A stretch of 64,000 bases of DNA from Candidatus Nitrospira neomarina (GTDB taxonomy: Bacteria > Nitrospirota > Nitrospiria > Nitrospirales > UBA8639): the NCBI RefSeq assembly GCF_032051675.1, contig NZ_CP116968.1, positions 4,519,001 through 4,583,000 of the forward strand. Direction: 5' to 3'. Made by a program: the position numbers and the translations under genes. Below the pieces are notes generated by a model that saw only the letters and a list, made by a program, of their open reading frames with translations, was not told where the DNA came from and made no database searches. Positions 9,130 through 40,769 of the stretch are shown piece after piece; within the stretch, counting starts at the first letter, position 1; each line of letters starts with the position of its first letter.

Positions 9130-9929
9130 TATGCATATCCTCGCATTGGAATTGTGCCACTGTAGTTGCGAGCAGGTTCTGATCGCGCCGTTAAATAGTG
9201 TCTATACTGTCGTGCACGGTTCAACGAACTTGTCCTCAACGACCTCGAAATCCTCATCATGAACAAAAGTCCCGCCACTTGTTTGCACCTGAACCTCAAT
9301 TGATTGTCTTCATCCGTGTATGTGTTGGTCCGATTTTTGAGCTTAAGACAGTAGGTATGGAGGGCAGGCGGTAACCCGCAAATTTTTTTCAACTAGTCTA
9401 CCTCATGGTCTAGTTGGGTGGGCACAGTTACAGGTGAAGTCAGGAATGGCATCGGGATTGGCTATGATGTATTGGGCTTGGCAATTTTGCAATTCGCTTT
9501 TAAGCCTTCAGACAAAGGCTTTTTCGGAATATCCCTCATTATCTTGATAATGTGTCGAAGATTCCTTTGTGAAAAATCCGCATTCATCCCCTTGGTCAAA
9601 GAGTAAGTCAGCGGCCGCTCTTCACATTCCTTCTGAGGTTTCACGGCGTATTTCTCCTCTTTCCTTTTGTCTCACTCCTCATCCCTTACGTTTCCTCAGG
9701 TGCAGTCCAAAAATTTAAGCCGGTCTGAACATTTTCGATTTCCTTGGTTAACAAAGGGAAGCAATCCATCCTACCCTTACCTAATATGAAACATATTCAA
9801 CAAAAAACATCGGCAAGTTTTTCCTGGGTAAGTCGATAATGAAACATGAAAACGAGGAGCCACAGAATGCGAGGTGGAAAACTTTCTTGGGTCCACGAAC
9901 ATTTATGCATAACTATGAAGCATGGATTC
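9130..9929. other. Intergenic region upstream of the pilin riboswitch
   Basis: No supported gene. An inverted repeat at 9390-9416 has a T-run on the wrong side to be a terminator. A short palindrome (AATATG-AAA-CATATT, 9783-9797) lies 140 bases before the riboswitch and could be a promoter-proximal regulator site for the pilin operon. That is inference only. Confidence 0.4.
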
Positions 9930-10032
9930 GGTCGGGTGCCCCTTCCCGAGAACGGCGAACACGTCGTAAGGCGTGGGCGCAAAACCACGGATCAGGGTTG
10001 GTCCCTGATAGCCGGGTTGCCGAAGGCACGGA
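9930..10032 (+). ncRNA. GEMM-I type cyclic-dinucleotide riboswitch
   Basis: The elements match the GEMM-I aptamer in order. A closing helix pairs GTGCC (9936-9940) with GGCAC (10025-10029). A second helix has a GTAA (GNRA) tetraloop in CACGTC-GTAA-GGCGTG. The conserved linker is GGCGCAAAACC. A third helix pairs ATCAGGG with CCCTGAT, followed by the tetraloop-receptor side AGCCGGGTTGCC. GEMM-I aptamers bind cyclic di-GMP, and a subclass binds 3',3'-cGAMP. It lies about 90 bases before the first Flp pilin, on the same strand. The intervening sequence shows no T-run terminator, so control may act on translation or on an alternative fold near the AAGGAG at about 10107. Which dinucleotide it prefers cannot be decided by eye. 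Confidence 0.85.
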
Positions 10033-10119
10033 GAGCCAAGGGGCAACGTCTGCGTCAGAATTTTCCGGGCAGTCTGGCGTAACGCACGTATTTACCTTCG
10101 CCCGTTAAGGAGATGCGCT

Positions 10120-10290
10120 ATGGTTAACCAAGTGATGCGTTTCGTAAATGATGAAGAGGGAGCCACAGCTATTGAGTATGGTTTGTTGGCTGCTTTGATC
10201 GCCGCGGTGATAGTGACTGCCGTGACTGCTGTTGGGACTGCCCTCAGCGGAACGTTCAACAACATTGCTTCGTCTGTTGCTCCGAGCTAA
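10120..10290 (+). CDS. flp: Flp-type pilin 1
   Basis: A 56-residue prepilin. AAGGAG lies seven bases before the ATG. The short basic leader is followed by the Flp processing site in EEGATAIEYGLLAALIAA: cleavage is expected after the Gly, leaving Glu and Tyr at mature positions 5 and 6, then a hydrophobic helix. Flp pilins polymerise into thin adhesive Tad pili after cleavage by a TadV/CpaA peptidase, which is encoded at 13842. It is the first gene behind the GEMM riboswitch, so its expression is probably second-messenger controlled. Confidence 0.92.
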   Translation: MVNQVMRFVNDEEGATAIEYGLLAALIAAVIVTAVTAVGTALSGTFNNIASSVAPS

Positions 10291-10317: not shown

Positions 10318-10357
10318 GAAGTGCCGTTCTGGTGGCAGGTCACTGGAACGGCACTTC
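10318..10357 (+). other. Strong hairpin between the two pilin genes
   Basis: A perfect 12-base stem (GAAGTGCCGTTC at 10318-10329 against 10346-10357) with a 16-base loop. No T-run follows, so it is more likely an mRNA-stability or processing element that raises pilin 1 transcript levels than a full terminator. Confidence 0.6.
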
Positions 10358-10444: not shown

Positions 10445-10648
10445 ATGCAGACGATTCTCCTGAATCACTGTCATCACTTGATAAAAAACCTTCTCGTTGA
10501 TGAAGACGGCGCCACGGCGATTGAATATGGTCTCCTGGCTGCGCTCATCGGCGCGACGGTGTTGACAGCTCAAGCCGCCATGGGAACGGCAGTCGTAAAT
10601 ATGTATGAAGGGGCCATGGGGATCATCGCAGAGGCTCTGGGAAGTTAG
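10445..10648 (+). CDS. flp: Flp-type pilin 2
   Basis: 67 residues. GGGAGG lies eight bases before the ATG. It has the same processing motif as pilin 1, EDGATAIEYGLLAALIG, with a longer leader of about 22 residues and a different C-terminus ending MGIIAEALGS. It could be a second major pilin or a minor one. The conserved Glu and Tyr after the cleavage Gly are present. It belongs to the same riboswitch-led transcription unit. Confidence 0.9.
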   Translation: MQTILLNHCHHLIKNLLVDEDGATAIEYGLLAALIGATVLTAQAAMGTAVVNMYEGAMGIIAEALGS

Positions 10649-10756: not shown

Positions 10757-10909
10757 AACAGAGGGAGATGGAATGGTATTTGAGGGACACGATACGGGAT
10801 CTATCAGAAATGTCTGGCGGGGGCTAGTTCCATTTTAACGTGCCTGTCCGTGGTAGGTGGACACGGCCTGATAGCCACTTCCAAAACATTTAGCAGAGTG
10901 GGACAAAGA

Positions 10910-11338
10910 ATGATGAATGTATACCACAAAAAACTATTACAAAAGCTGAGACAATCCGAGCGGGGCTCGACGGCAGTAGAGTTTGCTCTCATCTTACCGA
11001 TTCTTGCCTCCCTCGTATTTGGAGCGATCGATTTTGGCCGTATGTTGTGGTTTAAGGAAGTTCTGGTGAATGCGACCCGTGTGGGAGCGCGCCAGGGGAC
11101 GTTATTTGCGGCAGGCAATGGGCAGGCAGAAATTGAAGCAGCTGTCACGGCCTCTCTTACCGCGGGAGGGGTGGATTCATCAGGGCTCTCGGTGGCAGTC
11201 AATGGGGTCGGAGGTGCACAGGGGCAGCCGTTAAATGTGGTCGCCACTATACCCTGGAACTACTTTGTCATCGATAAACTCATTCCCGCGATTTCTACAC
11301 CCAACTTACAAGCCTCTGTCACCATGATGATGGAATAA
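10910..11338 (+). CDS. tadE: TadE-like minor pilin
   Basis: 142 residues from the ATG at 10910. An N-terminal basic stretch is followed by RGSTAVEFALILPILASLVFG, the TadE prepilin-like motif with Glu after the cleavage site and a single membrane helix, then a 90-residue outer domain. TadE-family pseudopilins are needed for Flp pilus assembly. It lies between the pilins and a TadG-like gene, as in other tad loci. A frame from 10850 is open, but the extra 20 residues look non-coding. Confidence 0.88.
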   Translation: MMNVYHKKLLQKLRQSERGSTAVEFALILPILASLVFGAIDFGRMLWFKEVLVNATRVGARQGTLFAAGNGQAEIEAAVTASLTAGGVDSSGLSVAVNGVGGAQGQPLNVVATIPWNYFVIDKLIPAISTPNLQASVTMMME

Positions 11339-11391
11339 GACAGGAAAATTTTCCCGGAGAGATCGGCAAGGGAGAGGGGGAATCAAAAATA

Positions 11392-12507
11392 ATGTGGAAC
11401 AAACACCGAACATCTGGCGTCTCTGGGCTCTTGAATGAACGTGGTATCGCGGCCATCAACGGCGTGTTTATGGGAGTGACCATGGCCATCATGGCAGGTG
11501 TGGCAATTGATGTCGGGCATGCCCTTCTTACCCAAAATGAGTTGCACAATGCTTCGGATGCCGCTGCGCTGGCCGCTGCACGGCAATTGGGTGTCACTTA
11601 CTTGGCCCTGCCTATTGCTCAGCAGCAGGATTTGAATCGAAATCTGACAAGCAATGAACAATCACAAATAAATTCGCAGGCGACCGCCGCAGCCTTTGCC
11701 AATAGTGCTTCAGAGGTCAGTAATTTATCTCTTTCGCAAGGAGATATCGAATATGGCACGTGGGATTTCGATGGAAAGACGTTTACCCCAACCGTGACGC
11801 GCCCCAATGCCATTCGTGCGACCACACGGCGGGATGGTGCGGCGAATGGACCGATTACGACATTTTTTGGGGGTATGTTGGGTGTCAATACCATGAGCCT
11901 CGCGACCAGCTCGATTGCCGCATTGGGGACCTCGGGTGGTCCGACCCCACCAGGAGTAGGTGATGTGCCCTTTGCCATTTCCAGTAACTGGTTTAATGGC
12001 GTGGCCTCCTGCAATTCGGGTATCCAATTTTCTCCTACCGGGGTGAATGGCTGTGCGGGATGGCATGTCTTTGATCAGCATCCGGCCAATGCGAGTAAAC
12101 TCCGTAATACTATCGATGGACTACAAGACGGGAGCTATCAAAGTCCCGGGATGACTCCAGGGCAGACACAATTCACCTTTACGGGTGGAGAAGTCTCATC
12201 GGCGTTTCCCAATCTGATCAATTTGTGGGATACAAAAAAACAATGGAATAATGATGCTGGGCGGTATGAATGGGATATCAATCTTCCTGTCTATGGAGCC
12301 AGTTCCTCATCCTCTTGCAATAATCCCAGTGGAGATATCACCATCGTGGGATACGCGAAAGCGGTGATTACAACAGTCAAGAAAAATGATATTCAAGCGG
12401 AAGTGAAATGCGATGCCTTTTTTGATGGAGCGCCAAATCCCAACCAGACCGGTGGGGGCATTGGACCCCTTCAGCCCTTATCGGTTTATCCACGATTAGT
12501 GTCGTGA
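11392..12507 (+). CDS. tadG: TadG-like Flp pilus assembly protein
   Basis: 371 residues. The N-terminus has ERGIAAINGVFMGVTMAIMAG, a single membrane helix, then VGHALLTQNELHNASDAAALAAA, the typical TadG/TadE_G opening in which Ala-rich helices follow the anchor. The remainder is a Ser/Thr/Asn-rich secreted domain with four Cys. I see no von Willebrand MIDAS motif, unlike the TadG at 48033. It is the last gene of the first tad unit and is followed by a clear terminator. Confidence 0.82.
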   Translation: MWNKHRTSGVSGLLNERGIAAINGVFMGVTMAIMAGVAIDVGHALLTQNELHNASDAAALAAARQLGVTYLALPIAQQQDLNRNLTSNEQSQINSQATAAAFANSASEVSNLSLSQGDIEYGTWDFDGKTFTPTVTRPNAIRATTRRDGAANGPITTFFGGMLGVNTMSLATSSIAALGTSGGPTPPGVGDVPFAISSNWFNGVASCNSGIQFSPTGVNGCAGWHVFDQHPANASKLRNTIDGLQDGSYQSPGMTPGQTQFTFTGGEVSSAFPNLINLWDTKKQWNNDAGRYEWDINLPVYGASSSSSCNNPSGDITIVGYAKAVITTVKKNDIQAEVKCDAFFDGAPNPNQTGGGIGPLQPLSVYPRLVS

Positions 12508-12554
12508 TGACGAGTCAACAGCCGGGAGTATAAGAGCGTCTCCCAGGAATCTTG

Positions 12555-12602
12555 GTCCTTTTGGGTCGGTCGTGTTTGAGACGGGCTCAAAAGGACTTTT
12601 TT
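12555..12602 (+). terminator. Rho-independent terminator of the pilin unit
   Basis: GTCCTTTTG (12555-12563) pairs with CAAAAGGAC (12588-12596) and is followed by six T. It lies 48 bases after the TadG-like stop. Confidence 0.85.
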
Positions 12603-12974
12603 ATGGGCTCCCTCTCCTAGGCCCCTAGAGTACCAATAGGTCTGCTCATTTCCCCGACATGCACGTTTCTATTGTAGAATGTGCTGACGAAGGACTCATT
12701 GTCGCTTCGTTTCGCAGCTAGAGATAGTTTTTACCTTCCACATCTCTGTCTTTCCCTCTAGACCTCTTTCCATCATTTTGCTTAGCCGTTTCCTGGAGTC
12801 TGTTCCCCCACCATGCCCAGAAATGCGGAAAACCATACAAGCAGTATAAAGGGCACCTCTAAAAACCCTTGGTTTTGTCCGCATTCCTTGCTCTTGCTTG
12901 GAGGGACGGATTAAGGCCCTGGGAATGAGGAGGAGGCGGAGGTCGTCGAGGCATTCACCCTGCTTCCTTGTCCT
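12603..12974. other. Intergenic stretch before the IS relic
   Basis: No gene or recognised element. It probably belongs to the same decayed insertion that interrupts the tad locus. Confidence 0.35.
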
Positions 12975-13210
12975 TCTTACGCACCCTGGGCCTTCTGTGG
13001 CGAAGCCAGTCCCAGAAACCCGTGGAAGTTATACCTGAAATTCTTCATCCCAATCTTTATGCGAATCCGCACAAGCCCGACGGTTCGAATCAGGTTGCCG
13101 CTCATCGCGGTCATTTAATGGCCGAAGATATGTTCGACGTGGGCTCGAATACGAGAGGGCATTCATCTGCTACGCTCGACATTTGTTTTCGGGAAATCAT
13201 CTATCACTAA
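12975..13210 (-). pseudogene. Decayed IS5-family transposase C-terminus
   Basis: Reading the minus strand gives RAHVEHIFGH, a stop, then MSGNLIRTVGLVRIRIKIGM and KNFRYNFHGFL. This follows the C-terminal block of IS5-group DDE transposases (R-x-R-V-E-H-V-F-G, then G-x-L-I-R-T-I-G-L-x-R-A-x-x-K-I-G-L-x-N-L-x-Y-N). In-frame stops show it is dead. I could not follow the N-terminal half with confidence, nor find terminal inverted repeats. It lies between the two halves of the tad locus. Confidence 0.7.
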
Positions 13211-13841
13211 CTTCCCGCTGATGGCTGGTGGGGATGAGAGAGGGGATAAGAAAAGTGGGCGTACGGAAATGATGGAGAGACAAAAGGATGGAGTATCCAG
13301 GATCAAAGTCGAGCATGATGGTGGGAGAGATTTTTCATGACACAGCCCATAACCGTTTTTTCGATCTTTCTGTCGTAGTTGGCCTAAAGCTTTTCTCCTC
13401 CCAACATGAAACACGTCAATCTTTATCTTGCTGAGACGATCGCATAAATAAAAGAAGGTACATGCACCCATTCTTTCGAGAAACCATGGGTCTCTGAGGA
13501 AAATGAAGGAATTCCGCGAACTCTGTGGACTTCCTCAGTACAGAGATTCCTTTCATTGGTTCAGGATGATCGTGCAAGGATGGCCTTGCCGACTTTTCTC
13601 GTGTTTGTCGCACGTCTGACCGGTGAAATCTAAAAAATACACATACCCATGCACCCGGTCTTTAATCATACATACTTGTTGAGGGCACGCCTTAAGAAAG
13701 TCAGGTAACCCACCGAAACATGAACTGTTCCCAGTGCTTGAGCTTCATGATCGGTGGTGGTTTGCGGGTGCATTGTGAGGTGATCGGGGCACCTGCTTGA
13801 AAGTTTGATTATGAATTTAATTGAGGGAATAACCTGGAAAC
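13211..13841. other. Intergenic region upstream of cpaA
   Basis: Probably further IS remnant up to about 13600, although no transposase motif is certain. The promoter for the cpaA-tadD unit should lie in the last 200 bases. Confidence 0.4.
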
Positions 13842-14369
13842 ATGAATACTTCAATTTTGTTATTTGGATTAGCCTTGGGTTTAGTGGTCGCAGCGATCAC
13901 TGATGTCCGGGAGGGGCGGATTCCCAATTGGCTGACGGGGTCCTTGGCAGTCTTTGGAATTGGAGTGAATAGCCTAGCGTATGGTTGGGACGGATTCCTG
14001 TTCGGTCTTGGAGGTCTGATCATGGGGTTGGTCTGCTTGATATTTTTTTATCTAAAAGGAGGGATGGGTGCCGGAGACGTGAAATTGCTTGGAGCCATTG
14101 GAACAATCCTGGGTCCCGGCCAGGTGGTCTTTGCTTTTGCCTTTGCAGCCATGTTGGGTGGACTGTATAGCCTAGCTCTATTGTCCAATCAGGGTGGCAT
14201 GCGTCATGCCTGGGATCGGATGTTTCTCCTTCTGGCCACCCTGAAGGTGACTAGGACCATTCCGGTTTCTGATGCCTCCATCCCCACCGAGCCTAAGTTA
14301 CGGTATGCCCTGGTTTTAGGGTTGGGAACCGTAATCGCCAAAACGTTGTTTTATTATGATGTGTTGTAA
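13842..14369 (+). CDS. cpaA: CpaA/TadV prepilin peptidase
   Basis: 175 residues, a short A24-family aspartyl peptidase without the methylase domain. The two catalytic Asp are visible: D21 in TDVREGRIPNW and D79 in GGMGAGDVKLLGA (the GxGD motif). Five to six membrane helices. It cleaves the Flp, TadE and TadG leaders. It starts the second tad transcription unit, after the IS relic. Confidence 0.92.
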   Translation: MNTSILLFGLALGLVVAAITDVREGRIPNWLTGSLAVFGIGVNSLAYGWDGFLFGLGGLIMGLVCLIFFYLKGGMGAGDVKLLGAIGTILGPGQVVFAFAFAAMLGGLYSLALLSNQGGMRHAWDRMFLLLATLKVTRTIPVSDASIPTEPKLRYALVLGLGTVIAKTLFYYDVL

Positions 14370-14548
14370 TTCGTGTTCGCTTAGGTCTACGAGTTGGAAA
14401 TGAGCGATCGGAGAAGATTCTTCTCGTTGTCTATTAAGAATGGCATTTGTCATCCGATATGCAGAGGTAGACAGGTTGAAACCTCAGGTTTGATAGGCAT
14501 GAATAAAAACTTCGGTCTGGATTTGGTGAAGAAGGGGGAGGAAGTCTC

Positions 14549-15394
14549 ATGGGACAAAAACGGCCACTCGTATTTTTAGGAATTGCGATGATTATTGCCC
14601 TGGTGACGACGGTCATGGTGTATCGGTGGCTACAGGGGCAACGAATGATCGAAACCGATGCCCCTGAAGTGGTGATGGAGGGTGTGAGTGTCGCAGTGGC
14701 CAGTGCCGATATCCCCTGGGGGACACCTCTCGGTGCAAAAGCTGTTCGAGTGATGATGTACCCTGAAGAAGGCGTCCCCGTGGGCCACTTTAAGGACACG
14801 GCTTCCTTAAATGGTCGAGTCGTGCTGACGAACCTGAAAAAAAATGAGCCCATATTAGAATCGAAATTGGCTCCGATCGATCTTAAAACGGGGGGCGTGT
14901 CGGCCGTGATGGATCCCAATAAACGGGCGATGGCCGTAAAAGTCAACGAAGTCGTCGGGCTTCCTGGTTTTGTGCAGCCAGGTGATCGGGTCGATGTCAT
15001 GGCGACGTTTGATGATCCGAGGGGGAAGAAGAAAGAAGGTGGTGGTACCCGAGAGGAAGTCACGAAGGTGGTTCTTGAGAATACCCTGGTGTTGGCAATC
15101 GATACGCAAATGGAGAGAGCCAACGGAGAGGAGAAACCCACTCCCGTAAAAGTCATAACGTTGGAAGTGTCGTTGGAAGAAGCTGAGAAGTTGGCCATGG
15201 CTGAAAATGGTGGAAAGTTACGTTTGGCCCTGCGGAGTCCACTGAATCCTGAGGTGAAGAAAACCAAAGGTGCCGACTTTAAGGATTTGATGAGTTCACA
15301 CCAACTCATTCCTCCGCGGCCCAAAGTGGTTCGCAAGCCTGAAAATCAGGTCGAGGTGATCAAAGGGACGGATCGAAAAACGATGAAATTTTAA
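14549..15394 (+). CDS. cpaB: CpaB/RcpC Flp pilus assembly protein
   Basis: 281 residues. GGGGGAGGAAG lies upstream of the ATG. One N-terminal membrane helix is followed by an SAF domain (about 45-110: VSVAVASADIPWGTPLGAKAV, then VVLTNLKKNEPI) and an RcpC domain (GLPGFVQPGDRVDVMATF) to about residue 240. CpaB sits in the periplasm next to the secretin. Its place directly before cpaC is standard. Confidence 0.92.
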   Translation: MGQKRPLVFLGIAMIIALVTTVMVYRWLQGQRMIETDAPEVVMEGVSVAVASADIPWGTPLGAKAVRVMMYPEEGVPVGHFKDTASLNGRVVLTNLKKNEPILESKLAPIDLKTGGVSAVMDPNKRAMAVKVNEVVGLPGFVQPGDRVDVMATFDDPRGKKKEGGGTREEVTKVVLENTLVLAIDTQMERANGEEKPTPVKVITLEVSLEEAEKLAMAENGGKLRLALRSPLNPEVKKTKGADFKDLMSSHQLIPPRPKVVRKPENQVEVIKGTDRKTMKF

Positions 15395-15439
15395 GGGGGC
15401 GTCGATGGTGACGCGATGATCGGTATGAAAGGTAACGTT

Positions 15440-16939
15440 ATGAATCAGACTTATGGTTTTCCATTCAGGAGCATGTTTATGGCTCTAAGCATGGTCCTTG
15501 TGGGCTACACGGGAGCCTTTGGAGAAGGTCTCACTACTCAGGCGGTCCACCTCAATACGCCTCAAAGCCTGCGATTAACGGTCGGAGAATCAAAAATTGT
15601 GGAACGGGAGACGGCGTTTAAACGCGCGTCGGTCGCTAACCCTAAAGTGGCGGATCAAATTGTGCTCTCCACTAAGCAAATTTATTTGACCGGGCTTGAG
15701 GTTGGGACGACCACCTTGACTCTATGGGGGCAAGATGGGCAGGTGTCCAATGTTTTCCAGGTCCGGGTCTCTCCCGATGTCACTCGCTTGAAGGAGCAGC
15801 TTCATACGATGATGCCGGAAGAACCTGGCATTGAAGTGATGAATAGTCACGAGCACATTACTCTGGCGGGCAATGTTACCAATATGGAGTCCTTGGCGAA
15901 AGCTCTCACTCTGGCCGAGCCCTATGCTCCGGATAAAATCATTAACCTGATTCAGGTGGGTGGCGTACAACAAGTAATGATGGAAGTGAAAGTCGCTGAA
16001 ATGCAGCGTGGGCTGATGAAGCGTCTCGGGGTGAATTTTAAACGGGCTCAAAAAAATCATCGTGATTTTTCCATCGGACTCATTAATGATTTGTCAACGG
16101 TTGATGCCTTCGAACCGTTTGCGCGTTCACAATCCTCACAAACGACGACTCTGGAATTTCCAAGCGTGAGAACCCTGGCCTCGAATCTGATTTTAGGATT
16201 CGGGATTGGCGATGATTTATGGACTCTCTTTTTAGATCTATTAAAGGAACATTCTCTCTCGAAAACCTTAGCCGAACCGACCTTGATTGCCGAGAGCGGG
16301 CAAGCCGCGGAATTCCTGGTTGGAGGAGAGTTTCCAATTCCGATTCCACAGCAACTTGGTCAGGTGACGGTGAAATTTAAAGAATTCGGAGTTGGATTGA
16401 AATTTACCCCCACAGTTCTTTCGGAGGGGCGTATTTCCGTAATTGTGAACCCTGAGGTGTCAGAATTAGACTTTGCCAATGGTATTGTCATCCAAGGATT
16501 TCAGATTCCCGCTTTGACCACTCGACGGGTGAAGACCGTAGTGGAATTAGGTGATGGGCAAAGTTTTGCCATTGCGGGCCTTCTCCAGGAAAATATCAAG
16601 GAAACGGTGTCAAAATATCCTGTCTTAGGTGATATCCCAGTTTTGGGTGCGTTATTCCGGAGCACCGCATTCCAAAAAAATGAGACCGAACTGATTGTGA
16701 TTGTGACCCCTCATTTGGTGAAACCTCTGGATATGGTGAAACAGACCTTGCCCACAGATCACTATTTGGAGCCTAACGATTTTGAGTTAATGCTGATGGG
16801 GTATGTGGAAGGGGCGTTTCCAGAGTCAAATGTCGCCAGGCCGAGCGAGGCCTACACGCTTGAGTCACCGAGGGTGGCGGGAAGAATGCCGTACCGTAAA
16901 GGTGGGATGGAAGGGATGTTCGGGCATCTGGCCCCATAG
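15440..16939 (+). CDS. cpaC: CpaC/RcpA Flp pilus secretin
   Basis: 499 residues from the ATG at 15440, with an AAAGG-type site and a clear signal peptide of about 28 residues. An N-terminal pilus-formation domain (about 35-120: LRLTVGESKIVERE) and a BON-like stretch precede the secretin domain (about 250-430) with GGEFPIPIP, VGLKFTPTVLSEGRISV and NETELIVIVTPHLVKP. It forms the outer-membrane pore of the Tad machine. The ATG at 15416 is in frame but has a weaker start context. Confidence 0.93.
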   Translation: MNQTYGFPFRSMFMALSMVLVGYTGAFGEGLTTQAVHLNTPQSLRLTVGESKIVERETAFKRASVANPKVADQIVLSTKQIYLTGLEVGTTTLTLWGQDGQVSNVFQVRVSPDVTRLKEQLHTMMPEEPGIEVMNSHEHITLAGNVTNMESLAKALTLAEPYAPDKIINLIQVGGVQQVMMEVKVAEMQRGLMKRLGVNFKRAQKNHRDFSIGLINDLSTVDAFEPFARSQSSQTTTLEFPSVRTLASNLILGFGIGDDLWTLFLDLLKEHSLSKTLAEPTLIAESGQAAEFLVGGEFPIPIPQQLGQVTVKFKEFGVGLKFTPTVLSEGRISVIVNPEVSELDFANGIVIQGFQIPALTTRRVKTVVELGDGQSFAIAGLLQENIKETVSKYPVLGDIPVLGALFRSTAFQKNETELIVIVTPHLVKPLDMVKQTLPTDHYLEPNDFELMLMGYVEGAFPESNVARPSEAYTLESPRVAGRMPYRKGGMEGMFGHLAP

Positions 16940-16965
16940 GAAATTTGCTGAAAAAGGAGCAGAGC

Positions 16966-17379
16966 ATGCAACGCCAATCAATTATGAAAATGGCAGGTCT
17001 AATCGGCCTGATTCTGGTGGGGATGGGTGGCTGTGGTGTGTGGCCGGTCATGACCGAGGAGAATGGGCGGCGTCCTCAAGCGATGGGGAAAAGAGACCAG
17101 GTTCTCCTGCCGTGGGCGCCTCAGCCCGTACATCTGAGTGAAGAGTATGGTCTGTCCTATCGACAGGCCCTCGAGAATCAAATCGCGAATCCCGCAGCCG
17201 CCAACAATCTTGGCCCGATAGCCGGAGAGGCCGATTCCCAAGCCCTGCAACAGAGTCTGGCTCGGTATCAGTTGATGTTTCAAAGTCCGCCGTATTCCCC
17301 ATTCAAGCTGAAGGGTGGCTCCGGCGGTGGTTCATCAAGTGGTGGTTCATCAATTGGTGTCTCTTCGGAGGGAAATTAA
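16966..17379 (+). CDS. Small lipoprotein at the cpaD position
   Basis: 137 residues. AAAAAGGAG precedes the ATG at 16966, and the leader ends VGMGGC (lipobox). The mature part has no recognised domain and ends in a Gly/Ser-rich tail. In Caulobacter-type loci this slot is held by cpaD, an outer-membrane lipoprotein pilotin. I see no sequence match to CpaD, so the analogy rests on position and lipidation. It ends one base before cpaE starts, so translation is probably coupled. Confidence 0.75.
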   Translation: MQRQSIMKMAGLIGLILVGMGGCGVWPVMTEENGRRPQAMGKRDQVLLPWAPQPVHLSEEYGLSYRQALENQIANPAAANNLGPIAGEADSQALQQSLARYQLMFQSPPYSPFKLKGGSGGGSSSGGSSIGVSSEGN

Positions 17380-17380
17380 C

Positions 17381-18634
17381 ATGAAGGATAAAACTTGGAA
17401 GCCAAAACGTGTAGGCACGGATTCCTCAGGTGCCGCATCCGATATGCCGGTCATTGAGCTTTCCATTCGGTCATCAGAATGTAAGGCGACACTTGAGGGC
17501 TTCATTCGGGAGATTGACGGTGTGCGGCTCAAAGATAGTCAGGAACCCGGAGTTCCTGCACTCATGATTATGGAGTTAGAAGAGAAGCCGGAGGACACGT
17601 TCTCCCTGATTCGAGAGATGATGAAATTGAATAAAGGGATAGAGATATTCCTTACCACTGCACGATTGGAGTCAAATATTTTATTGGAAGCCATGCGGGC
17701 CGGCGCCAAAGAGTTTTTGGCGCAACCGCTCCAAAAGCAAGAAGTGAGCGATGCCATTATGCGATTTTTGGAGCGAGCCGCGGCTCCGGTTCGTCAGGGT
17801 GATGGGCAACGAGCGGCGGGAAAGGTCCTGGCATTTTTTGGGGGAAAAGGTGGGGTGGGAACGACCAGTATCGCGGTGAATTTGGCCGCCGCTATCAAAA
17901 AAGGGCCGAACAATCCGTCGGTCGCCCTGGTTGATGTCAACCAGCATGGGGGAGATCTTCCCTTGTATCTCGATCTTCAACCGAACCATAGCTTCCGGGA
18001 TATTGCGACCGATTTGTCCCGACTAGACCAAGCATTTCTCATTCGTGTCCTTACCAAAACGGAATTGGGCATTCAAGTGCTCCCTTCGGGGTATGATGAT
18101 CTCAGCACAGGTCGATTAAGTCCGGATTGTGTGGAGGCGACCCTTCGACTGCTTCAATCCAGCTTCGACTATGTCATTCTTGATTGTGGACATGTGTTGG
18201 ATTTGACGACAAAGAAGGCATTGGAGCTTGCGACGTTAATTCTGGTGACGTCTACATTAATGGTCCCCGTGGTTCATCGAACGAAGCGAATTTTAGAATT
18301 GTTACGTGGATCCGGATTTCCTGCTGAAAAAATCCGGTTGGTGATGAATCGATTCTTATCGGCGGAACAGGACGTGTTGAAAGAGACTGAAGAAATACTA
18401 AAACAAAAAGCCTTTTGGCTACTCCCCAACGATTATCCTTCCGCAAGTCAAGCAGTGAATAGTGGAAAGCCGTTGATCGATGTGGCTCCACGGTCGGCAG
18501 TGGCTCAATCCTATCGGGATCTGGCCAGTTCATTTGTGGGGCAGCCCGCCAAATCGGCAAGCAAGGGAACGTTAGCCGGGTGGTTGAATCCCTTTAAAAG
18601 TCGGAATGTCCAATCATCCCCTTCAGGGGCATAA
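17381..18634 (+). CDS. cpaE: CpaE/TadZ MinD-like localisation ATPase
   Basis: 417 residues. GGAGG lies nine bases before the ATG. An N-terminal receiver-like domain (about 20-135) lacks an obvious phospho-acceptor context. It is followed by a ParA/MinD domain with deviant Walker A FGGKGGVGTTSIAVNLAAA (about 152-170), Walker A' VALVDVNQHGGDL and VILDCGH. TadZ proteins mark the pole or site for pilus assembly. It stands directly before cpaF as usual. Confidence 0.9.
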   Translation: MKDKTWKPKRVGTDSSGAASDMPVIELSIRSSECKATLEGFIREIDGVRLKDSQEPGVPALMIMELEEKPEDTFSLIREMMKLNKGIEIFLTTARLESNILLEAMRAGAKEFLAQPLQKQEVSDAIMRFLERAAAPVRQGDGQRAAGKVLAFFGGKGGVGTTSIAVNLAAAIKKGPNNPSVALVDVNQHGGDLPLYLDLQPNHSFRDIATDLSRLDQAFLIRVLTKTELGIQVLPSGYDDLSTGRLSPDCVEATLRLLQSSFDYVILDCGHVLDLTTKKALELATLILVTSTLMVPVVHRTKRILELLRGSGFPAEKIRLVMNRFLSAEQDVLKETEEILKQKAFWLLPNDYPSASQAVNSGKPLIDVAPRSAVAQSYRDLASSFVGQPAKSASKGTLAGWLNPFKSRNVQSSPSGA

Positions 18635-18670
18635 TATTATTCTTTTCATATTGTTGAGGTAAGCCGGTTT

Positions 18671-19996
18671 ATGTATGAGACAAAATGGGATGAGGTGGGT
18701 GCGGGGTCTGGCGTTGGGGCGTTAAACCTGGGTCCATTGAAGGAACGGCTTCATCGCCAGGTGATTGATACTCTCGACCTGGCCGTTGTTGCGAAGTTGG
18801 ATTCCAATCTTCTCAAGGTCGAGCTGACTAAGCTCGTCCAGGAAATGTTGGAGAAGGAATCCATCCCTCTCAGCATGAAAGAGCGGGAAATCCTGATTGC
18901 CGACATTGAGCATGAAGTCATGGGTTTAGGCCCACTTGAACCGTTGGTGCAAGATCAAACCGTCAACGATATTCTGGTCAACCGGGCCGATCAAATTTAC
19001 GTGGAGCGCGCCGGAAAACTAGAATTGACCGATGTCAAGTTTCGTGATGAATCCCATCTTCGAAAAATTATTGAAAAAATTGTGTCGGCGGTTGGGCGAC
19101 GAATAGATGAATCGTCCCCCATGGTGGATGCTCGTTTGCTGGACGGGTCTCGCGTGAATGCCATTATTCCGCCATTGGCTCTGAATGGATCTTCCATTTC
19201 AATTCGAAAGTTTTCCAAGGATAAGTTGCAGATCTCGGATTTGGTGAACAAACGTTCCCTGACTCCCGAGATTGCAGAGCTCCTTCGCGGGATTGTCGAA
19301 GCGAGACTGAATATTCTGATCTCGGGAGGAACGGGCTGCGGAAAAACGACCATTCTGAATATTCTGTCAGGATTTATTCCCTCCGACGAACGCATTGTGA
19401 CGATTGAGGATTCAGCGGAGTTGCAATTGCGGCAAGAGCATGTGGTCCGGCTCGAAACCCGCCCCCCCAACGTGGAAGGGCGGGGAGAAGTGAGCCAGCG
19501 GGAATTAGTCAAGAATTGTTTGCGCATGCGGCCGGATCGAATTGTGATGGGTGAGGTGCGAAGTGGGGAATGTCTCGACATGCTTCAAGCCATGAATACG
19601 GGGCATGATGGGTCCCTGACTACGATTCATGCCAATACCCCACGCGACTGCCTGACTCGGGTGGAGACATTGGTGGCTATGGCCGGGTTGAATCTGGCTA
19701 CGAAGGCGCTTCGCCATTATATCAGTTCCGCTATCGACGTCATTCTCCAAATGACTCGCTTGTCGGATGGATCCCGTAAAATGACCAGTTTGTCGGAAAT
19801 TGTGGGTATGGAAGGCGAAACCATTACTCTTCAGGAAATATTCCTGTTTCAACAAACCGGACTGGATGAAGAGCGAAAGGTGCATGGGCAATTTAGAGCA
19901 ACTGGCGTGCGGCCGAAATTTGTCGAACGGTTTAAAGCATTAGGAATTACTTGTGACCCAAGTATCTTCGACCCCGAGAAAATTTATGAAGTGTAA
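18671..19996 (+). CDS. cpaF: CpaF/TadA Flp pilus assembly ATPase
   Basis: 441 residues, the secretion ATPase that powers Flp pilus extension and probably retraction. Walker A is GGTGCGKTT (about 218-226). An Asp box (VTIEDSAELQL), RMRPDRIVMGEVRSGE and the His box TGHDGSLTTIHANTPRDCL follow. The N-terminal domain (to about 130) has the usual CpaF helices, including LGPLEPLVQDQTVNDI. Downstream are tadB and tadC. Confidence 0.95.
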   Translation: MYETKWDEVGAGSGVGALNLGPLKERLHRQVIDTLDLAVVAKLDSNLLKVELTKLVQEMLEKESIPLSMKEREILIADIEHEVMGLGPLEPLVQDQTVNDILVNRADQIYVERAGKLELTDVKFRDESHLRKIIEKIVSAVGRRIDESSPMVDARLLDGSRVNAIIPPLALNGSSISIRKFSKDKLQISDLVNKRSLTPEIAELLRGIVEARLNILISGGTGCGKTTILNILSGFIPSDERIVTIEDSAELQLRQEHVVRLETRPPNVEGRGEVSQRELVKNCLRMRPDRIVMGEVRSGECLDMLQAMNTGHDGSLTTIHANTPRDCLTRVETLVAMAGLNLATKALRHYISSAIDVILQMTRLSDGSRKMTSLSEIVGMEGETITLQEIFLFQQTGLDEERKVHGQFRATGVRPKFVERFKALGITCDPSIFDPEKIYEV

Positions 19997-20086
19997 TAAC
20001 CGTTTTTCAAATCGTTTCACTCTCACGATGGCCTTTGCTGTGGTGGTTTGTCTTGTTGATTCGTCATCTAGTTGGGAGGGCGTGTC

Positions 20087-21064
20087 ATGACCGTGGCCAT
20101 TAGTATTGGAATATTTCTGTCAATTATTTTGTTTGTGGAGGGAGCCTATTACTGCTACCACCAATATGTGAATCCCCACAATAAGAATCTCAAGCGGCGT
20201 TTGCGTGGTGGATCAGGAAAGCCGGGAGATTTTCAAAAAACCCAAGAAGCACCCGGAATTCTTCGAAATCGGAAAATGAGCGACATTCCGTGGATCCAAA
20301 GTTTGTTGGGTTCTATGACCAACTTGGGGGGACTGGAAAAATTGCTCCAACAGGCCAATAGTCAAATGCCTGTTGGCGTGTTTTTCCTCTTATCCGGAGT
20401 GCTCGGAGGAGTAGGGTTATTGGTCGCCACCTTTCAAGACTATGGGCTAATTGCTGCCATGGGTCTCGGTCTTATGGGCATGAGTCTTCCTTTGCTTCAG
20501 ATGAAACGGAAGCGGAAACGTCGTTTTAAAGAATTTGAACGCCAATTGCCCGAAGCATTGGATTTGATGGCTCGGGCCCTTCGGGCAGGACATGCTTTTT
20601 CCGTGGGTATGAAGATGATCGGTGATGAATTTCCGGATCCGATAGGTCCTGAGTTTAGTCGAACCGTTGAGGAAATTTCGTTTGGAATCGATGTCCCTCA
20701 AGCGATGAACAATTTAAATGGTCGGGTGATCAGTACCGATTTGAAGTTTTTTGTCACGGCCTTAGTCGTTCAACGAGAAACAGGGGGAAATTTAGCAGAA
20801 ATCATTGAGGCGATTTCTCGACTCATTCGGCAACGATTTGAGTTACTGGGGCGAGTCAAAGCGCTTTCGGCCGAAGGCCGGATGTCGGGGATTATTTTAT
20901 TCTGCATGCCGATTGTCATGAGCTTTCTGTTGTGGTTTCTGAATGAAGCTTACATGCGTATTTTGATTGAGGATGAGGTTGGTCGAATGATGGCTCTAGG
21001 TTCAGGTCTGTTAATGCTCGTGGGAGCCTATGTGATGAAAAATATGTGTGATATTAAAGTCTAG
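20087..21064 (+). CDS. tadB: TadB inner-membrane platform protein
   Basis: 325 residues from the ATG at 20087 (GGGAGGG six bases before). One N-terminal helix, a basic cytoplasmic stretch, two helices (about 90-140), a T2SF domain (FERQLPEALDLMARALRAGHAF, RETGGNLAEIIEAIS) and two C-terminal helices. TadB forms the inner-membrane base with TadC. Only 12 bases separate it from tadC. Confidence 0.92.
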   Translation: MTVAISIGIFLSIILFVEGAYYCYHQYVNPHNKNLKRRLRGGSGKPGDFQKTQEAPGILRNRKMSDIPWIQSLLGSMTNLGGLEKLLQQANSQMPVGVFFLLSGVLGGVGLLVATFQDYGLIAAMGLGLMGMSLPLLQMKRKRKRRFKEFERQLPEALDLMARALRAGHAFSVGMKMIGDEFPDPIGPEFSRTVEEISFGIDVPQAMNNLNGRVISTDLKFFVTALVVQRETGGNLAEIIEAISRLIRQRFELLGRVKALSAEGRMSGIILFCMPIVMSFLLWFLNEAYMRILIEDEVGRMMALGSGLLMLVGAYVMKNMCDIKV

Positions 21065-40635: not shown

Positions 40636-40769
40636 GTGTGCGAGCGTTGGGCGGTACAGGAAAGGTTTTAAAGGAAATCGCCGATAAAGGTTAGAGGTTC
40701 TTTGCTGTTGAAAAGCGGTTTGATCCCGCACATATTTTGATCTCCTGTTTAACCAACTCTAGAAAACTA

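Follow-up and report, generated by a model that had tools for sequence, protein, structure and literature searches.

The 5' leader of flp1, an Flp pilin gene of Candidatus Nitrospira neomarina, contains a real and conserved member of the GEMM-I riboswitch class with a canonical pocket, placed in a new setting and joined to an uncharacterised platform. Judged from its sequence, this element is very probably a functional c-di-GMP riboswitch on flp1, an estimate that does not extend to how it switches. There is nothing unusual about the aptamer itself, and the interest is carried by the platform, the promoter and an overlapping reading frame. Flocs and biofilms of Nitrospirales matter for wastewater treatment, and to our knowledge little is known about how attachment is controlled in these bacteria. 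The element would provide a direct, testable RNA link of c-di-GMP to Tad pilus production in Nitrospirales. Unless a genome locus is given, coordinates refer to the window, which is the whole stretch of 64,000 nucleotides that was analysed. The aptamer and the genes downstream of it are:

9945..10025, + strand: GEMM-I (c-di-GMP-I class) aptamer, P1-P2-P3 (RF01051 and RF03167 scores; compensatory changes in P2 and P3)
10107..10112, + strand: Shine-Dalgarno AAGGAG of flp1 (from sequence; conserved in the genus alignment)
10120..10290, + strand: flp1, Flp pilin, 56 aa (PF04964, 64.6 bits, cut-off 32.2)
10445..10648, + strand: flp2, Flp pilin-like, 67 aa (PF04964, 36.3 bits, cut-off 32.2)
10850..21064, + strand: rest of the tad cluster as far as tested (TadE, TadG-like, prepilin peptidase, RcpC/CpaB, secretin, TadZ-like ATPase, CpaF/TadA ATPase, TadB-like)

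A cmscan of the whole 64 kb window returned a full-length, untruncated Infernal match at 9945-10025 (+), which is the sole Rfam match in the window. It scores 66.3 bits with RF03167 (c-di-GMP-I-GGC; gathering 59, E 1.8e-13 for the whole window), while the whole-genome search gave 67.8 bits with RF01051 (c-di-GMP-I; gathering 35) over 9944-10024. The first-pass annotation had described all GEMM-I core elements as present and ordered and had proposed the Rfam check; both clan models score above threshold, and the named elements can be located. It had passed over the linkage across the family, the frame that overlaps the aptamer, the platform and its pseudoknot, and the sigma-28-type promoter. 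The GNRA loop on P2 is GUAA (9966-9969), with GAAA, GGAA and GCAA among the genus orthologs and GNRA in 16/16. The segment GGGCGCAAAACC lies at 9975-9986 and CCGGGTTGCC at 10012-10021. The latter, read earlier as the receptor side, is present as described, but it consists of the P3 3' strand plus the ligand-facing GCC and is not strictly the tetraloop-receptor strand. Among the 16 orthologs of the genus alignment, five pairs of P2 and P3 are altered on both sides; the core of P1 is invariant and uninformative on covariation. From the end of the aptamer to the flp1 ATG (10120) there are 94 nt, close to the distance of about 90 bases given before. The genes at this point are indeed pilins, two consecutive ORFs matching PF04964, and the Flp pilin is accompanied by TadE, peptidase, RcpC, secretin and a CpaF-type ATPase by Pfam (cluster matches PF07811, PF13400, PF01478, PF16976, PF00263, PF13614, PF00437 and PF00482), as in a Tad/Flp cluster. 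Between flp1 and flp2 there is a strong inverted repeat of about 17 bp without a T run (10318-10355), possibly an mRNA-stabilising or processing hairpin.

The ligand was predicted from three bases, located by alignment to the Rfam models.

9954, + strand: ligand-selecting base G20 (Vc2 numbering), invariant in genus orthologs
9981, + strand: A47 (Vc2 numbering); the RF03167 consensus is G here
10020, + strand: C92 (Vc2 numbering)

All three are invariant in 16/16 same-genus orthologs, as are both bases of the inter-helix pair C9978-G10011 in the 16 orthologs, to which we assign the Vc2 numbers 44 and 83. In the c-di-GMP-I class, G20, A47 and C92 contact the ligand (PMC4744006, PMC11218506), and an inter-helix Watson-Crick pair is named as a class feature (PMC4744006). 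Because G20, A47 and C92 form the canonical c-di-GMP set, c-di-GMP is the predicted ligand and cGAMP is not predicted. The earlier suggestion of either dinucleotide, which hinged on a selecting base that had not been aligned, is thereby narrowed to c-di-GMP. A GEMM-Ib element sensing 3',3'-cGAMP would share the fold class, and the single change G20A lets a class I aptamer bind cGAMP (PMC7288161). The cGAMP riboswitches of Geobacter belong to the same superfamily (PMC8835794) and by the same G20A rule sense cGAMP via A20 (PMC7288161), whereas the flp1 aptamer has G, as do 16/16 genus orthologs. Although another GEMM of the same genome has A at this position, we regard cGAMP sensing by the flp1 aptamer as highly improbable. 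That other GEMM-I (G000:C1:4646760-4646849; L005, L007, L015) lies before a fibronectin-III-like ORF; A is found likewise in G001 (L040), while its orthologs in G006, G009 and G019 have G, so that a recent natural shift from c-di-GMP to cGAMP sensing is possible at that locus.

By E-value, the best Rfam label of the element is c-di-GMP-I-GGC, above the gathering cut-off, and membership in this variant class with a different, unknown ligand has to be weighed. We take the name GGC to mean positions 20, 47 and 92. In the RF03167 alignment there is a mismatch at position 47, where the consensus has G (CGCGAA) and the window, like all genus orthologs, has A; the element is therefore not filed in the GGC variant. 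RF01051 is also slightly ahead in bits (67.8 vs 66.3). The label reflects overall similarity and is misleading for this element, and the variant class is an improbable home for it, if a little less so than cGAMP sensing is an improbable function.

The association with flp extends well beyond the species. A match to the leader-plus-pilin DNA was found in 19/21 genomes of the genus, its own genome included, and 16 of these 19 entered the leader alignment. Outside the genus, coordinates of GEMM and PF04964 matches show a GEMM ahead of an flp gene, at most about 630 nt away, in 10/10 Flp-bearing genomes examined. The distance is 115-120 nt in G036, G038, G039 and G046, which represent four other genera, and 510-630 nt in G035 and G040-G044, from two further genera. 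Four genomes were examined from genera g2 and g5 and yielded neither GEMM nor Flp, and G045 has a GEMM and no Flp. This linkage, together with a pocket that is invariant while the helices carry compensatory changes, argues against a relic aptamer that is retained by descent without regulatory effect. Of all the alternatives we rate such a relic the least likely. A DNA pattern made from the initial 29-30 nt of the leader structure occurs in 16 records among about 85,000 species, 15 of them titled Nitrospirales, Nitrospirae, Nitrospirota, Nitrospira or Nitrospiria and one Nitrospinota. The label 'likely nitrifier', given by the first-pass annotation, is plausible by kinship only, this Nitrospinota-titled record being the exception among the named relatives with the leader. 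A literature search of open-licence papers turned up no earlier description of a Tad/Flp locus under a GEMM riboswitch.

The aptamer is joined to a platform of four helices, H1 to H4, of which H1 and H2 adjoin P1 and H3 and H4 form a hairpin-pseudoknot before the ribosome site.

9932..9949, + strand: H1, anti-P1 hairpin TCGGG (9932-9936) / CCCGA (9945-9949), invariant in 16 genus orthologs
9937..9944, + strand: H2 5' strand TGCCCCTT, pairing with 10038-10045 in 16/16 genus rows
10038..10045, + strand: H2 3' strand AAGGGGCA, extending P1 across an 11-nt bulge and compatible with the folded aptamer
10053..10079, + strand: H3 hairpin CGTCAG (10053-10058) / CTGGCG (10074-10079), two pairs with compensatory changes
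10066..10070, + strand: H4 5' arm CGGGC, located in the loop of H3 (pseudoknot), pairing in 16/16, with G-C to A-U in G014
10100..10104, + strand: H4 3' arm GCCCG, stopping 2 nt short of the flp1 Shine-Dalgarno

Taken as a whole, the structure has 98.7% of cells paired in the alignment and 10 pairs changed on both sides, with 0/500 shuffles as high; slid registers give 36-46% paired. The fold of 9920-10140 was not found to be unusually stable (z -0.99). H1 shares bases with P1 and is retained in G036, G038, G039 and G046; since it never varies and offers no covariation, its pairing is only inferred. H2 shows compensatory changes from C-G to U-A at 9941/10041 (5 rows) and 9939/10043 (1 row) in the genus alignment, and in G038, where it reads TTCCCCTT/AAGGGGAA, a further change from G-C to T-A. 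In other genera the loop and arm of H4 are GGGCACA/TGTGCCC or GGGCATA/TATGCCC, a comparison of H3 and H4 made by eye on extracted sequences and not by structural alignment. The same hairpin-pseudoknot is found before the flp genes of G041 and G043 without a nearby aptamer, and H3/H4 has no match in Rfam. Shuffling of single leaders was uneven for H3/H4 (0-5 of 200 in G000, G038, G040, G042 and G043; not significant in the others), and the case therefore rests on shared position and compensatory changes. H3/H4, which covaries in its own right, is a candidate for a new RNA element. Four other pairings were discarded: H5 (CCTT 10095-10098 with AAGG), which is not kept in all; H6 (9933-9936 with 10101-10104), predicted in the state with aptamer and H2 but without covariation; H7 (10016-10021 with 10042-10047), which has one covarying pair and is broken in G020, H2 fitting the same bases better; and GGGCG 9976-9980 with CGCCC 10099-10103, which is lost in G006, G014 and G015 (GGACG there).

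These elements suggest a mechanism by which the GEMM-I in the flp1 leader would tune Tad pilin synthesis to c-di-GMP. RNA polymerase with FliA (sigma-28) would start transcription near 9846. At low c-di-GMP, the P1 5' strand would be held in hairpin H1. On binding of c-di-GMP, P1 would close, H2 would lock it, and TCGGG would be freed from H1; the equilibrium of the H3/H4 pseudoknot next to the Shine-Dalgarno would shift, and flp1 translation would be altered. The sense strand of the flp1 leader has neither an intrinsic terminator nor a terminator-like site, so transcription attenuation was rejected and the control is probably translational.

The direction of the switch is less clear. Nested folding of 17 orthologs, a method that does not reach the pseudoknot, gave no consistent change in Shine-Dalgarno access between the aptamer-formed and H1-formed states, and was rejected as a guide to direction. 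We lean weakly towards an ON switch because sister GEMM leaders seem built to release the Shine-Dalgarno when P1 forms. By our own reading of the sequences, the P1 5' flank or adjacent strand in these leaders (3740368 in the same genome; the first GEMM of G036, G039 and G046) is complementary to the Shine-Dalgarno region or its cover. A second reason is the riboswitch before a type IV pilin gene of Clostridioides difficile, a class II c-di-GMP ON switch (PMC4744006), which shares the signal and the kind of target but belongs to an unrelated RNA class, and its type IV pilin is not of the Tad/Flp group. Against this lean, the fliA riboswitch described below looks like an OFF switch, so that an OFF switch on flp would give a coherent motile-phase programme.

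The aptamer also lies inside an open reading frame.

9846..10082, + strand: leader reading frame of 78 aa with its ATG 6 nt after the -10 box, running through the aptamer to the stop TAA (10080-10082)

The frame is open through the aptamer in 19/20 orthologs and has no NCBIfam match. Its WVxEHLxxT part (9888-9923) has an excess of synonymous variation that is reached by 0/400 and 1/400 column shuffles; the synonymous fraction is 0.353, compared with 0.162 (sd 0.053) in column shuffles, 0/400 of which are as high. The ATG 6 nt past the -10 box is invariant in 14 genomes, so leaderless translation is possible and is our guess. The frame is longer in G036, G039 and G046, where it forms an ORF starting after the first GEMM. 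If ribosomes translate 9846-10082, they might themselves melt the aptamer and H3/H4 and so allow flp1 translation, with c-di-GMP hindering or aiding their traffic. The synonymous-codon signature and the frame kept open through the aptamer favour this reading, as do the position of the stop codon, in or directly after the H3 3' strand, and the ATGA overlap with the flp start in which the frame of some relatives ends. However, the genus lacks a start codon in this frame that has a conserved Shine-Dalgarno, the frame of G039 stops at the first helix of the aptamer, and beyond the aptamer the frame is not conserved as protein. We hold such control by ribosome traffic to be a tentative, minority prospect; it overlaps the preferred reading, a c-di-GMP riboswitch acting through the platform, and does not exclude it. 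An aptamer within a coding-constrained frame would, if true, be a rare overlap of RNA and protein information. In genus g8 (L096, L108, L109, L094, L099) there is a fast-evolving ORF between GEMM and flp, which starts M..RFW and often has WxExHxxxT.

Upstream of the frame lies a putative promoter of flagellar type.

9813..9839, + strand: sigma-28 (FliA)-type promoter, GCAAGTTT (9813-9820), 11-nt spacer, GTCGATAA (9832-9839), 13/16 consensus match

We took TAAAGTTT-N11-GCCGATAA as the sigma-28 consensus. The flagellin gene of the same genome, which served as positive control, has TCAAGTTT-N11-GTCGATAC. Without mismatch, AAGTTT-N13-CGATAA occurs once in the window, with 0.23 expected even when one mismatch is allowed. 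Six sites with a match of at least 13/16 were found in the 252 kb of strand scanned, and four of them are GEMM sites. The promoter position is held in 13/16 genus orthologs and in G038 of another genus, with a spacer that varies; comparable sites lie ahead of the GEMM in flp leaders of the longer-spacing genera and ahead of three other GEMM loci of the same genome. From these sequences we infer that FliA is used at the flp1 promoter. Another sigma-28-like site, AAAGGTTT-N11-GCCGATAA, is found at 40661-40687; a response-regulator-like ORF (40770) follows about 80 nt later.

The genome encodes a FliA/WhiG-type sigma factor (TIGR02479, 192.4 bits, cut-off 189.6), and upstream of its gene lie a separate GEMM-I and an intrinsic terminator (G000:C1:1534676-1534766 (-), L014). 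In 8/8 genus leaders examined, GGGCGCA of this aptamer's core is complementary to TGCGCCC in the 5' arm of the terminator. The fliA-type leader is therefore read as an OFF switch, which is what the complementarity suggests. Swimming, c-di-GMP signalling and Tad pilus production look wired together, and the resulting prediction is concrete: FliA would start the flp transcript, with one riboswitch gating fliA and another flp. The flp leader could then be a composite device, previously undescribed, with an aptamer inside a translated frame and H3/H4 guarding the ribosome site, in which the FliA promoter and the fliA riboswitch make a two-level circuit that couples Tad pilus output to flagellar commitment; in this full form the proposal is speculative, and we think it rather unlikely to hold in every part.

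Comparison with Vc2 and Vc1 of Vibrio cholerae (RF01051) shows what is shared and what has been added. The fold, the GNRA loop, G20/A47/C92 and C44-G83 are common to them, and all sit in 5' leaders of genes for surface structures. The flp1 leader differs in its Tad/Flp pilin target, overlapping reading frame and FliA-type promoter, and it carries H1, H2 and, next to the Shine-Dalgarno, the H3/H4 pseudoknot as extensions. In Caulobacter, Tad pili, flagellum and c-di-GMP are also coupled (PMC6581867, PMC13234629); the accessible portions of these two papers describe this coupling as protein signalling and contain no riboswitch on tad genes.

GEMM leaders were also seen in other arrangements. In L088, L089 and L078/L092 (G039, G046 and G036, respectively) the layout is tandem, with GEMM1, an ORF of about 140 aa, GEMM2 and flp. 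This ORF, of no known family, ends in or after GEMM2, and a hairpin after GEMM1 would hide its Shine-Dalgarno. L013 (6480-11224) has a local duplication, in which two almost identical GEMM leaders each stand in front of a large secreted repeat protein. In other genera, L132 and L137 (G039, G046) have a GEMM-I and a terminator-like hairpin before response-regulator-like ORFs.
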